Shown here: positions 12,184 through 53,294 of the stretch, piece after piece
How the letters are laid out: each line of letters opens with the position of its first letter
How positions within the stretch are numbered: the stretch's first letter is position 1
Origin: an uncultured Kordiimonas sp.
GTDB lineage: Bacteria; Pseudomonadota; Alphaproteobacteria; Sphingomonadales; Kordiimonadaceae
Reading direction: 5' to 3'
Length of the DNA stretch: 64,000 bases
NCBI GenBank assembly: GCA_947503575.1
Contig: CANNDZ010000002.1
Coordinates: 124,001 to 188,000, forward strand
Program-made: the position numbers and the translations under genes
Notes under the pieces: generated by a model
Told to the model about the DNA's origin: nothing
Seen by the model: only the letters and a program-made list of their open reading frames with translations
The model's database searches: none

Positions 12184-13224
12184 ATGGCCACTCTTAATCA
12201 GCCAAGCAATGTTGTCTCCTTAAGGGGCAATGGTGCGAAAAATAGCGATACAGCGATAGAGCGCCTGCAAAGCGTGACAGCAAGCGACATGGCAGCGGTG
12301 AATGAAACGATTCTGGACCGGATGCAAAGCCCCGTGTCTCTTATCCCGGAACTTGCTGGTCATTTGATTTCGTCAGGCGGCAAGCGATTGCGGCCTATGC
12401 TGACACTGGCATCTGGTAAACTGATCGGATACGAAGGCACTCGCCATATTGGTCTGGCAACAGCGGTTGAGTTTATTCATACGGCTACGCTGTTGCACGA
12501 TGATGTAGTGGACGAGAGCACGTTGCGCCGTGGTAAAACAACCGCAAACCTCATTTGGGGAAATCAGCCCAGTGTGCTTGTAGGCGATTTTTTGTTCAGC
12601 CGCGCCTTTGAGCTGATGGTCGGGAGTGATTCGCTTCGTGTACTTAAGATTTTATCGAACGCCTCCTCGGTCATCACCGAAGGCGAGGTACTGCAACTAA
12701 CGACAGCAAATGACCTGTCAACAAGCGAAGAAAAATACCTGGAAGTGATCACGGCCAAAACCGCCGTATTGTTTGCAGCGGCTTGCGAAGTTGTTGGTGT
12801 TGTAGCAGACCGTGATGAAGCCGTCATTGGAGCGCTCGAAGCATATGGTCGTAACCTCGGTATTGCATTCCAGTTAATTGACGACGCCATTGACTATGCA
12901 TCGCAAGGCGCAACGATGGGCAAAAATGCAGGGGATGATTTCCGTGAAGGAAAGATCACCCTTCCTGTTATTCTGGCCTATCGGCGCGGCGACGATGACG
13001 AGCGTGAGTTCTGGAAACGCACCATGCAGGCGGTTCGCCAAACCGACGGTGATTTAAAAACCGCGCTTGATATCCTTACCAAACACGACACGCTTTCGGC
13101 AACAATTGACCGGGCACGCCATTACGGCGCAATGGCAAAAGACGCGCTTGCCATATTCAAGGATAATGAAGCAAAATCAGCGATGCTTGACGTGGTGGAT
13201 TTTTGCATTGATCGTGCTTACTGA
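12184..13224 (+). CDS. ispB: Polyprenyl (octa-/decaprenyl) diphosphate synthase
   Basis: Makes the long isoprenoid side chain of ubiquinone by successive condensation of isopentenyl diphosphate. The 346-residue product has both aspartate-rich motifs: LLHDDVVDES (FARM) and LIDDAIDY (SARM), plus GGKRLRP. Chain length (8, 9 or 10 units) cannot be read reliably. ATG at 12184 gives a normal-length protein; the frame extends to an upstream ATG at 12091 that would run into the divergent control region. The last 11 nt overlap the start of a ModA-like gene. Confidence 0.93.
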   Translation: MATLNQPSNVVSLRGNGAKNSDTAIERLQSVTASDMAAVNETILDRMQSPVSLIPELAGHLISSGGKRLRPMLTLASGKLIGYEGTRHIGLATAVEFIHTATLLHDDVVDESTLRRGKTTANLIWGNQPSVLVGDFLFSRAFELMVGSDSLRVLKILSNASSVITEGEVLQLTTANDLSTSEEKYLEVITAKTAVLFAAACEVVGVVADRDEAVIGALEAYGRNLGIAFQLIDDAIDYASQGATMGKNAGDDFREGKITLPVILAYRRGDDDEREFWKRTMQAVRQTDGDLKTALDILTKHDTLSATIDRARHYGAMAKDALAIFKDNEAKSAMLDVVDFCIDRAY

Positions 13225-14023
13225 TCGCTTTGCATCCTGCGTTCTGGGGCTGGTTTTCATCCTATCTACTTTTGGTATATCGACCTCTTTGAGGGCATCA
13301 GAAGACAGCACCAATATAAAACCATTGACGGTTTTTGCCGCTGCAAGTCTGGCGGATGTCATACCTGCCCTCGCCAATCAGTGGCGACAGGACGGCGGTA
13401 ACCGCGATATCGTAGTCTCACTGGGGGCAAGCGCTGTTATGGCACGGCAAATCAATGCCGGTGCGCAAGCCGACCTGTTCATTTCTGCCAATCGGCACTG
13501 GGTTGACTTTTTAAGTCAAGAAACAGCCACAAATGAAACAGCAGTTGCCGTTGCAACCAATGATCTGGTCTTGGCGTTACCGTGCGCAATGTTGCCAATT
13601 GATAGCCTAGCAGTGAAACAGTTACACGAACTGGTTAGTAACGGACGATTCGCAATGGCGGACCCATCCTTATCTCCCGCAGGGGACTATGCGCGGAACT
13701 GGCTGGAAGCAGAGAACCTATGGTCTGTTGCTCGCCAAAATGCAGCTTTTGCCAATAACGTGCGGCTCACGCTGTTACTGGTCGAAAGAGCCAATGTGCC
13801 TGGGTTCGTTTACCGCAGCGATGTAAAGAAAAGCCGTCTTGCATGCGAGGCATTTACGCTGACGCCCCGAAACGGTGAAATAATCCAATATTTTGGCCTG
13901 TTGCCAAAAACCGTTCAATTCGAAAATATAAATGACGCACGGGCCTTCAGGGAATGGTTGCTCGGTTCTGCGGCCGCATCAGTTTGGCAAGAACATGGGT
14001 TTGGTACCCCTGCCCCAAAATGA
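13214..14023 (+). CDS. ModA-like periplasmic substrate-binding protein (orphan)
   Basis: Type II periplasmic binding protein of the ModA family, whose best known members bind molybdate or tungstate for an ABC importer. From the GTG at 13214 the product is 269 residues: a signal-peptide-like N-terminus (SCVLGLVFILSTFGISTSLRAS), then LTVFAAASLADVIPALA with the anion-binding Ser, SLGASAVMARQINAGAQADLFISA, and LSPAGDYARNWLE. No ModB or ModC gene follows; the next gene is 314 bp away and unrelated. The start overlaps the end of ispB by 11 nt. Substrate not proven. Confidence 0.75.
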   Translation: MLTDRFASCVLGLVFILSTFGISTSLRASEDSTNIKPLTVFAAASLADVIPALANQWRQDGGNRDIVVSLGASAVMARQINAGAQADLFISANRHWVDFLSQETATNETAVAVATNDLVLALPCAMLPIDSLAVKQLHELVSNGRFAMADPSLSPAGDYARNWLEAENLWSVARQNAAFANNVRLTLLLVERANVPGFVYRSDVKKSRLACEAFTLTPRNGEIIQYFGLLPKTVQFENINDARAFREWLLGSAAASVWQEHGFGTPAPK

Positions 14024-14046
14024 AACACAGGCATGAGCGTCAAATA

Positions 14047-14072
14047 GGGACACAGGCGTCCCAATATGAGAC
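14047..14072 (+). promoter_or_regulatory. Overlapping dyads, candidate enhancer-binding site for the sigma-54 promoter
   Basis: Two imperfect inverted repeats overlap here: GGGAC-N6-GTCCC (14047-14062) and GTCCCA-ATA-TGAGAC (14058-14072, one mismatch). They lie about 77-102 bp upstream of the predicted sRNA start, the usual distance for a sigma-54 activator site. The cognate activator is not identifiable. Confidence 0.35.
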
Positions 14073-14122
14073 ATAAATTTGTTAGGATTTTATAAGTATT
14101 TGTATTTATTGAATTTTTATTC

Positions 14123-14137
14123 TGGCACATAGGTTGC
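14123..14137 (+). promoter_or_regulatory. Sigma-54 (RpoN) promoter of the intergenic small RNA
   Basis: TGGCACATAGGTTGC matches the -24/-12 consensus TGGCAC-N5-TTGC at every key base, with GG at 14124-14125 and GC at 14136-14137 separated by exactly 10 bp. The predicted start is at about 14148-14149, two to three bases before the first hairpin of the sRNA candidate. Confidence 0.7.
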
Positions 14138-14147
14138 GATTTAAACG

Positions 14148-14284
14148 ATGTTCCGGTACTCCGGCTGCCACCGAAACCGGAACTTTGCCTGAGACATGAT
14201 CGGGCTGCCACCTGATCTTGTTTAAATTTAGAACCGGCGACGCCCCCTTTCCCAAGTCCTGCGAGGCGTTGCCGGTTTTTATTT
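14148..14284 (+). ncRNA. Candidate small RNA with twin CUGCCA hexaloops
   Basis: An RNA of about 135 nt fills the 306-bp gap between the ModA-like gene and the hydrolase gene. Hairpin 1: outer stem 14151-14157 / 14176-14182 (7 bp) and inner stem 14162-14164 / 14171-14173, loop CUGCCA at 14165-14170. Hairpin 2: stem 14198-14204 / 14211-14217 (7 bp, one G-U), loop CUGCCA at 14205-14210. The 10-nt string GGCTGCCACC is identical in both and exactly 40 nt apart. An intrinsic terminator ends it. A sigma-54 promoter sits just upstream. No open reading frame of note; no match to a known RNA family that I can recall. Confidence 0.68.
14232..14284 (+). terminator. Intrinsic terminator of the small RNA
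   Basis: A 13-bp stem (14232-14244 with 14265-14277, one G-U pair) with a 20-nt loop, followed by five T, A and four T. It also separates the upstream ispB-ModA unit from the hydrolase gene. Confidence 0.85.
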
Positions 14285-14337
14285 TGCCTTGCCGCGAAAC
14301 ACGACCATATTAGAAACGCTGAGCAAGGAGTGTTTCT

Positions 14338-15255
14338 TTGGCCAAAAATGGTTCACCCGATTTCAAGCATGATTTTTCCGCCCGTTACGGTGAAGCGGAA
14401 CGCATGTCGCCATTGGTTGCGCGGGTTCTGTGCAAAAACCCAAGCCCCTACACCTACACCGGCACAGGAACCTACCTTGTTGGAAACGGTAAAAACCTCG
14501 CCGTTGTCGATCCAGGACCAACAATTGAAAGCCATGGTGAAGCCCTTCTGGCAGCCATTGGTGACAAAACCCTTAGCCACATTTTAGTCACTCACACCCA
14601 CATGGACCATTCGCCGCTATCGGGGTGGCTTCAGCAAAAAACCGGCGCACCAATTCATGCATTTGGCGCACACGGAGCCGGGCGCAGGGCTGGCCTTGAG
14701 GGCGAAGACGTAGAAGCTGGGGCTGACAAGTCTTTCAAACCAGACGTGCTGTTGAGGGACGGGGACCAAATTTCAGGTGATGGCTGGACACTGAAGGCTG
14801 TTCACACACCCGGTCATACCGCCAACCATTTATGCTTCCACCTGCAGGAAGAAAACACCCTGTTTGTTGGTGATCATATTATGGGGTGGGCCACCACCGT
14901 CATTGCACCGCCTGATGGTGATATGGAAGACTATTTGGCCAGCTTGAAAAAGGTCATAGACCTGAAAGTCGACAAGCTTGCACCAACACATGGGCCCTGG
15001 ATTGATACGCCAGATCGCTTCATTCGCGGCATTATCACCCACAGACGGATGCGTGAAGGACAAATCCTCAAGCGGCTTGAAAAAGGACCGCGCACTATCG
15101 ATATGTTGGTGAGTGAAATGTATAAGGATGTGGACCCGCGGCTCCATCCCGCTGCCGCGCGGTCTGTGTTGGCGCATCTGATTGCCCTTGCTGATGGTGG
15201 GCGCGTTCAATGTGGTGGACAACCGACCTTGGGCGCGTCCTATGAACTGGCTTAG
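14338..15255 (+). CDS. MBL-fold hydrolase, LACTB2-like
   Basis: Metallo-beta-lactamase-fold hydrolase of the LACTB2/glyoxalase-II-like group; human LACTB2 is a ribonuclease but bacterial substrates are not settled. The 305-residue product has the zinc motif THTHMDH, a His in HTPGHTANHLC, Asp in FVGDHIMGW and His in APTHGPW, then a C-terminal winged-helix segment (HRRMREGQILKRLEKGP to the end) typical of the group. The start is a TTG with AAGGAG 6 nt upstream; the next ATG at 14404 would remove 22 residues. Directly downstream of the sRNA terminator. Confidence 0.88.
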   Translation: MAKNGSPDFKHDFSARYGEAERMSPLVARVLCKNPSPYTYTGTGTYLVGNGKNLAVVDPGPTIESHGEALLAAIGDKTLSHILVTHTHMDHSPLSGWLQQKTGAPIHAFGAHGAGRRAGLEGEDVEAGADKSFKPDVLLRDGDQISGDGWTLKAVHTPGHTANHLCFHLQEENTLFVGDHIMGWATTVIAPPDGDMEDYLASLKKVIDLKVDKLAPTHGPWIDTPDRFIRGIITHRRMREGQILKRLEKGPRTIDMLVSEMYKDVDPRLHPAAARSVLAHLIALADGGRVQCGGQPTLGASYELA

Positions 15256-52674: not shown

Positions 52675-52916
52675 TTTTAAAAATCTTCTCGTCTAAAATA
52701 ACAGTTTAGCGGCAACTCAATTCAAGGCTTCCAGCGTCTTGCTAAAAACATCATGCCATACAAACGGTGCGTTGTTTCGGCCTAAATACGCATTTATTTT
52801 TTTCTTTCAAGCTAAAAGGTGTACGATAGTTTTTATCTATCGGATTATTGATGTGAGTTGATAACAAAACGACCTCGCATAGCCGGGCGGGCCTATTGTT
52901 CGGGATAGGGTAAAGT

Positions 52917-53294
<378 letters not shown>

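Follow-up and report, generated by a model that had tools for sequence, protein, structure and literature searches.

Sets of sibling small RNAs under one sigma-54 enhancer-binding protein are represented by Qrr in Vibrio and by CrcZ and CrcY in Pseudomonas. For GlmY and GlmZ, we know of no repeated identical loops. These two are homologous small RNAs with an envelope-related target, and glmY has a sigma-54 promoter with three upstream QseF-bound sites of the form TGT-N12-ACA (PMC6075780). NfeR1, an alpha-r14 small RNA of Sinorhizobium, is a trans-acting RNA with three predicted hairpins, whose identical, ultraconserved seeds pair at a translation start; LsrB activates it, NtrC represses it, and its promoter lacks a sigma-54 signature (PMC10746234). 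The open-access library searched yielded only EcpR1 on sigma-54-dependent stem-loop small RNAs in Alphaproteobacteria, and no work on small RNAs of Kordiimonas or Kordiimonadaceae was found in it, the Kordiimonas paper that did come up dealing with coral isolates.

The two predicted small RNAs described here, sRNA-A and sRNA-B (A and B in the following), resemble Qrr and CrcZ/CrcY as a sibling set, and neither matches an Rfam family at gathering score. Their design is closest to that of alpha-r14/NfeR1 and their control to that of GlmY. As in alpha-r14/NfeR1, an identical unpaired seed sits on strongly differing stems, which is a likeness of design and not of membership; the alpha-r14/NfeR1 seed is the anti-Shine-Dalgarno sequence CCUCCUCCC (PMC10746234), whereas the seeds of A and B are CUGCCA and UUUGCCUGA. 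The QseF sites at glmY read TGT-N12-ACA (PMC6075780), the upstream sites at A and B read TGT-N11-ACA, and a match to GlmY/GlmZ is absent at the Rfam gathering score. CcsR1 (RF02791), a bacterial small RNA family named for a conserved CCUCCUCCC motif, was considered for sRNA-A and rejected, at 13.2 bits against a gathering score of 65.3 and an E value of 0.79. An initial sequence-only reading of this DNA had found no resemblance to 6S RNA or to known riboswitches; Rfam returned nothing convincing, either at the gathering threshold for A and B or at a relaxed threshold for A. Because no Rfam family matches, A and B would constitute a new RNA family on known principles.

The window, that is, the whole 64-kb stretch of DNA analysed, corresponds to C2:124001-188000 of a 3.6-Mb Kordiimonas genome, whose genus (g1) also includes G010. 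The features of the locus are as follows; those of the RNA itself are predictions from sequence.

13067 to 14023: ModA-like gene, upstream neighbour of sRNA-A
14011 to 14027, plus strand: upstream activator site 2, TGCCCCAAAATGAAACA, one mismatch to TGTNYCANNNTGRNACA, overlapping the 3' end of the ModA-like gene
14057 to 14073, plus strand: upstream activator site 1, CGTCCCAATATGAGACA, one mismatch to the scan pattern; the -24 element follows 66 bp downstream
14123 to 14137, plus strand: -24/-12 (sigma-54 type) promoter, TGGCACATAGGTTGC, a sequence motif
14149 to 14284, plus strand: sRNA-A (small RNA), predicted +1 to terminator T-run
14150 to 14183, plus strand: hairpin 1, loop CUGCCA at 14165-14170
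14184 to 14193, plus strand: linker seed UUUGCCUGAG, first 8 nt unpaired, matching the loops of sibling sRNA-B
14192 to 14223, plus strand: hairpin 2, loop CUGCCA at 14205-14210
14230 to 14284, plus strand: terminator with a 15-bp stem, the C-rich loop CCCCCUUUCCCA and a T-run
14338 to 15255, plus strand: MBL-fold hydrolase gene downstream of sRNA-A, which marks the locus by synteny

Elsewhere in the window, the minus strand at 52914-53293 holds a bacterial RNase P RNA of class A.

According to the sequence-only reading, a sigma-54 type promoter with activator sites drives a non-coding RNA some 135 nt long, and motif, fold and comparison all back this prediction. The promoter TGGCAC-N5-TTGC with GG-N10-GC spacing is present at 14123-14137 exactly as claimed; the 64 kb contain 3 matches to TGGCAY-N5-YTGC, both strands counted, so the promoter motif by itself is not rare. 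The +1 falls at about 14149 by the usual count, one base from the proposed 14148. The 10-nt core GGCTGCCACC indeed lies at 14163-14172 and 14203-14212, 40 nt apart; these are its only two copies in the window, where 0.35 would be expected, and two or more copies occurred in 2 of 100 shuffles. The fold of 14148-14290 reaches -55.7 kcal/mol; 200 shuffles average -36.3 +/- 3.5 (z -5.5), and not one of them folds as well. Some details of the proposed structure needed amendment: hairpin 1 has the CUGCCA loop, but its stem consists of an 8-bp outer part (14150-14157/14176-14183), an internal loop and a 3-bp inner part, rather than 7 bp; hairpin 2 has the 7 bp and the CUGCCA loop, with an additional 5-bp outer stem; and the G-C-rich terminator with its T-run has a stem of 15 bp (14230-14244/14265-14279), not 13 bp. 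A third exposed seed, UUUGCCUGAG at 14184-14193, had been missed, and its first 8 nt are unpaired. Ensemble unpairing is at least 92% for both CUGCCA loops and for the linker of the window RNA. The longest sense open frame within the RNA ranges from 0 to 42 codons across 22 A units, which suggests that these units do not encode a conserved small protein. The terminator loop at 14245-14264 is conserved and C-rich, reading CCCCCUUUCCCA or UUGCCCCACCUCAAUCCGC depending on the genome, and may be a third type of seed, directed at purine-rich ribosome-binding sites.

A DNA search found sRNA-A in 8 of the 29 family genomes, its own genome counted. A covariance model of the hairpins alone, built without the promoter from five genomes, matched 17 of the 29 at E<=0.1, including the 5 used for building, and a -24 element lies upstream in all 12 matches outside the training five. 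The distance from this element to the first CUGCCA loop is 42-43 nt in 10 of the 12 and 51 nt in the two genomes of genus g4, where hairpins 2 and 3 are the ones that the model matched; the g4 units have three CUGCCA hairpins each. The comparison with relatives that the sequence-only reading had called for thus bears out its expectation, in that the loops are kept, the stems change with compensation and the -24/-12 element is conserved upstream. Two covariance-model matches outside the family (G077, G248) have neither loops nor promoter and were set aside as chance. Searching 396 genomes of the order for a -24/-12 element with two GCTGCCA gave 17 genomes (14 of the genus, 2 of g4 and one unrelated) against 1 for the reversed control; the pattern match in G144 has a repeat-like appearance, as judged from the matched text only, and was discarded. 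Named genomes with matches are Kordiimonas gwangyangensis, K. laminariae, K. marina and Pseudokordiimonas caeni, the last with a sequence as in g4, and 5 of the 18 named-genome stretches (L079, L080, L083, L089, L090; from other groups) look by eye like coding DNA and were rejected as chance.

The MBL-fold gene is present in all 29 family genomes, and the stretch before it was then read in each. Promoter, hairpins and terminal hairpin stand at this locus in 19/19 genomes of the genus and 2/2 of g4; in G027 (g8), promoter and one enhancer site are there too, but a CUGCCA loop is not. A unit of this type is absent before the MBL gene in G001, G002, G003, G006, G007 and G028. Of the 21 units that the genus and g4 have together, 13 show by eye a clear T-run behind the terminal hairpin; in G004, G005, G010, G012, G014, G015, G017 and G018 this run is weak or missing. 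The copies of CUGCCA in the 22 A units, G027 included, number two in 14, one in 5, three in 2 and zero in 1. At the same locus, G008 (g7; L073) has one CUGCCA hairpin and a terminator without a -24/-12 element, perhaps a relative of sRNA-A under another promoter.

The sequence-only reading had also pointed to candidate activator dyads. Upstream sites do exist, but the conserved unit is the 17-bp palindrome TGTNNCANNNTGNNACA, common to type A promoters, and not GGGAC-N6-GTCCC. Scanning the own genome with TGTNYCANNNTGRNACA at no more than one mismatch gave 26 sites against 22 for a reversed control, so that most single enhancer sites are background. Two of the 26 are those at A, and one exact site lies at C1:1769228; because the scan of the A-promoter enhancer pointed there, sRNA-B was found. 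Downstream of this site follow the -24/-12 element TGGTATGCAGATTGC, two TTTTGCCTGA hairpins and a terminator, which together make up sRNA-B, and its loops present UUUGCCUGA twice. The remaining 23 sites have no -24/-12 element on the proper side (14 of them within 350 bases, 9 within about 0.5 kb), and four of these enhancer-like sites have a loose one on the wrong side. The own-genome sRNA-B follows a gene for a DUF2336 protein (L095:481-1464), and a similar upstream gene end was seen by eye in several genomes.

Two TTGCCTGA spaced 13 to 43 nt apart gave matches in 27 of the 29 family genomes and none in the reversed control. By inspection, sRNA-B is present in 21 of the 29, namely in 15 of the genus and in G001, G002, G003, G004, G005 and G007 from four other genera, and is thus conserved in 5 genera where A is conserved in 2. 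Other close TTGCCTGA pairs were rejected as sRNA-B, being without a -24/-12 element and mostly of coding-DNA appearance. A stricter pattern of promoter plus loops matched 0 of 385 genomes of the class, a set holding the own genome and no other family member; as the pattern also misses the own genome's B, whose -24 reads TGGTAT, more distant relatives may also carry B. In the A units, TTGCCTGA occurs in 5 of the 22, as the linker in G000 and G025, behind the terminator in G009, and in place of CUGCCA in the second A loop of G013 and G020, where B was not found.

The two RNAs share promoter type and enhancer. TGG-N10-G[CA] is present in 22/22 type A and 21/21 type B promoters, and TGGYAY-N5-YTGC in 20/22 and 16/21, in a collection that had been gathered with a TGG[CT]A requirement. 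At no more than one mismatch, the type A promoters have 24 enhancer sites, spread over 19 of the 22, and the type B promoters 35, spread over 20 of the 21; the shuffle means are 0.1 and 0.2 (40 shuffles). The motif had been derived from some of the same promoters on which the sites were counted. The spacing between these sites is often 17 or 21 bp. In the own genome, a model of enhancer-binding proteins matched loosely 30 times, and some of these matches are expected to be other proteins. PrsR (TIGR02915), the PEP-CTERM regulator, was considered as the activator and rejected, scoring above cut-off in 1 of the 29 genomes (G007) and in none of Kordiimonas. Near C1:2254799 of the own genome (L002:1500-1610), a second sigma-54-like promoter resembles the one at 14123 and precedes a gene of the FlgE/F/G type; the idea of flagellar control that it prompted was dropped, the own-genome scan showing no enhancer site there.

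The hairpin structure of A and B is under selection, as judged by an arm-swap comparison in which the left and right arms of each hairpin were recombined between genomes and refolded. The 35 unique A hairpins average -13.3 kcal/mol against -8.3 for chimeras, and the 39 unique B hairpins -15.7 against -8.7; 0 of 20000 permutations of the right arms reach the natural total for A and 0 of 20000 are as good for B, in permutation and shuffle tests that ignore shared ancestry. The motif of A is wholly unpaired in 33/35 natural hairpins against 310/1158 chimeras. The 8-nt motif of B is wholly unpaired in only 1 of its 39 hairpins, so part of it tends to pair inside the hairpin.

What, then, could these seeds recognise? 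In four close genomes, TTTGCCTGAG occurs 87 times against 8 for a reversed control that is unmatched for codon bias. Eighty of the 87 sites were examined; A and B account for the other 7, and also for two of the 80. The complement stands 13 nt before a start codon at 3 of the 80, all of them one gene in three genomes, whose lipoprotein-like product combines TPR repeats with a SPOR domain. Three further sites lie within 60 nt upstream of a start, at a ParA-like gene of G021 (53 nt) and at the short ORFs L161 and L238. Orthologues of the TPR-SPOR lipoprotein were found in 28 of the 29 genomes and none in G010; 27 leaders were used, G003 being omitted as a match without a start. CAGGCAA is the commonest 7-mer of these leaders (18/27), followed by the promoter-like TTCTTTC (10/27). 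It stands at -11 in 6 genomes and at -17 to -55 in others, with G016 and G023 at -69 and -102, these two having CAGGCGA at -11; this varying distance from the ATG argues that it is not simply a ribosome-binding site. When G-U pairs are allowed, a pairable site is present in 23 of the 27 leaders, and in 18 of the 19 from genomes that also hold B, so degenerate a site being expected by our estimate in about one in five random leaders of equal length. The leaders without a site belong to G006, G008 and G028, where B was not found, and to G015, which has B and only CAGGCAC; G013, G017 and G023 have an exact site although the strict pattern found no B there. The duplex energy between B and the lipoprotein leader beats shuffles at the 5% level in only 7 of 19 genomes. 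The window RNA's linker UUUGCCUGAG could form 10 pairs with the own-genome lipoprotein leader at -16.8 kcal/mol.

The ParA-like gene lies near the lipoprotein gene, beside a neighbour of the ribbon-helix-helix type, and CAGGCAA is present in 9 of the 19 ParA-like leaders found among 23 stretches. Among 110 genes of the window and four further stretches, three of which were chosen around the lipoprotein gene, TCAGGCAA stands near starts 5 times, always at the lipoprotein or the ParA-like gene, and CAGGCAA occurs 9 times, 3 of them at other genes. Among 251 orthologue trios, which cover about one eighth of the genome, with ParA stretches added on purpose and the lipoprotein gene outside the set, CAGGCAA is present in all three upstream leaders once only, at ParA. 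As a separate observation, the glycine riboswitch (RF00504) core contains CTCAGGCAAAAGGAC, a perfect complement of the B seed, in three of four genomes (L163, L184, L212); this complementarity is probably a coincidence.

The CUGCCA loops are a different matter. For the earlier proposal that they recognise mRNAs with UGGCAG or GGUGGCAGCC, a conserved target was not found in the leaders examined. UGGCAG stands upstream of the start in all three genomes in 0 of the 251 trios, L304 having it in two; it occurs in 4 of the 27 TPR-SPOR leaders (G000, G004, G005, G008) and 2 of the 19 ParA leaders (G025, G004), both about chance level. The own-genome lipoprotein leader has UGGCAG 48 nt before the ATG, where a CUGCCA loop could pair at -20.4 kcal/mol; since only 4 of 27 leaders have the motif, we take this pairing only as a lead. 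Pairing of the CUGCCA loops with the TPR-SPOR leader was rejected, the A duplex energy falling below 5% in 1 of 20 genomes. The notion of loops as antisense seeds is borne out only indirectly: it fits the sibling loop UUUGCCUGA, whose complement is conserved in two leaders, and for CUGCCA no target was found.

We propose that A and B are probably sigma-54-driven antisense RNAs with several seeds each, directed at envelope-related genes, a case carried by the occurrence of B in five genera, by covariation and by the targets. An NtrC-family enhancer-binding protein would bind TGTNNCANNNTGNNACA and switch on both RNAs with RpoN. sRNA-A would display single-stranded seeds, CUGCCA usually twice and, in the window genome, the linker UUUGCCUGAG as well; sRNA-B would display UUUGCCUGA twice, and the seeds of both would pair with target mRNA leaders. 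The best supported targets of the UUGCCUG seed would be the TPR-SPOR lipoprotein gene and the nearby ParA-like gene, which as predicted targets point to the envelope. Such pairing may block translation; in the window genome it would reach to 3 nt before the lipoprotein start codon, which makes translational repression the likeliest outcome. The CUGCCA loops would presumably act likewise as seeds.

CsrB/RsmZ and CrcZ are sponge RNAs that titrate an RNA-binding protein, and the repeated loops of A and B could be protein-binding sites serving the same end. This reading would account for CUGCCA copy numbers of 0 to 3 on freely varying stems and for the want of a conserved CUGCCA complement in leaders; however, the leaders of the UUGCCUG targets conserve the complement rather than the seed sequence itself, and the other TTGCCTGA pairs have no upstream -24/-12 element and mostly look like coding DNA, and we regard it as unlikely. 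A decoy or helper role of sRNA-A towards B, on the model of GlmY and GlmZ, with CUGCCA loops that have no mRNA target of their own, is somewhat less likely still: the two RNAs have enhancer, promoter type and the loop core UGCC in common, and A carries a B-type seed in some genomes, yet G001, G002, G003 and G007 have B while their syntenic locus lacks A (the search for A elsewhere in these genomes covering the two-loop pattern and model R1 only).

The position of the unit, upstream of and in line with the MBL-fold gene in 21 of the 29 genomes, that is, in all that have CUGCCA behind a -24/-12 element, could mean that the RNA controls this gene in cis, as its leader or attenuator. We hold this to be very improbable: a terminal hairpin separates RNA and gene, in G012 some 1.5 kb lie between the two (RNA match at 170505-170576, start of the gene match at 172056), and the own-genome sibling B has no co-directional gene directly behind it. 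Chance hairpins beside a chance promoter, with no functional RNA at all, are hardly credible; single -24/-12 sites do arise by chance, as the 3 in the window illustrate, but the conservation of A across 2 genera and of B across 5, together with covariation and enhancers, speaks against this reading.

The preferred reading of A and B as multi-seed antisense RNAs can be extended, though the extension is tentative and may well prove wrong. A dedicated enhancer-binding protein, with a regulon of little beyond A and B, would control an envelope/partition module of the Kordiimonadaceae, formed by the TPR-SPOR lipoprotein and the ParA-like ATPase, and the seeds CUGCCA and UUUGCCUGA would be swapped as loops and linkers, their number and kind evolving as interchangeable parts. 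In the A/B pair, nature has varied loop copy number (between 0 and 3) and exchanged seeds behind one promoter type, so that the pair can be used to test why bacteria repeat one seed in one RNA. If our proposal is true, a sigma-54 enhancer-binding protein would be linked to envelope genes via RNA in Alphaproteobacteria, as GlmY/GlmZ provide for in enterobacteria.
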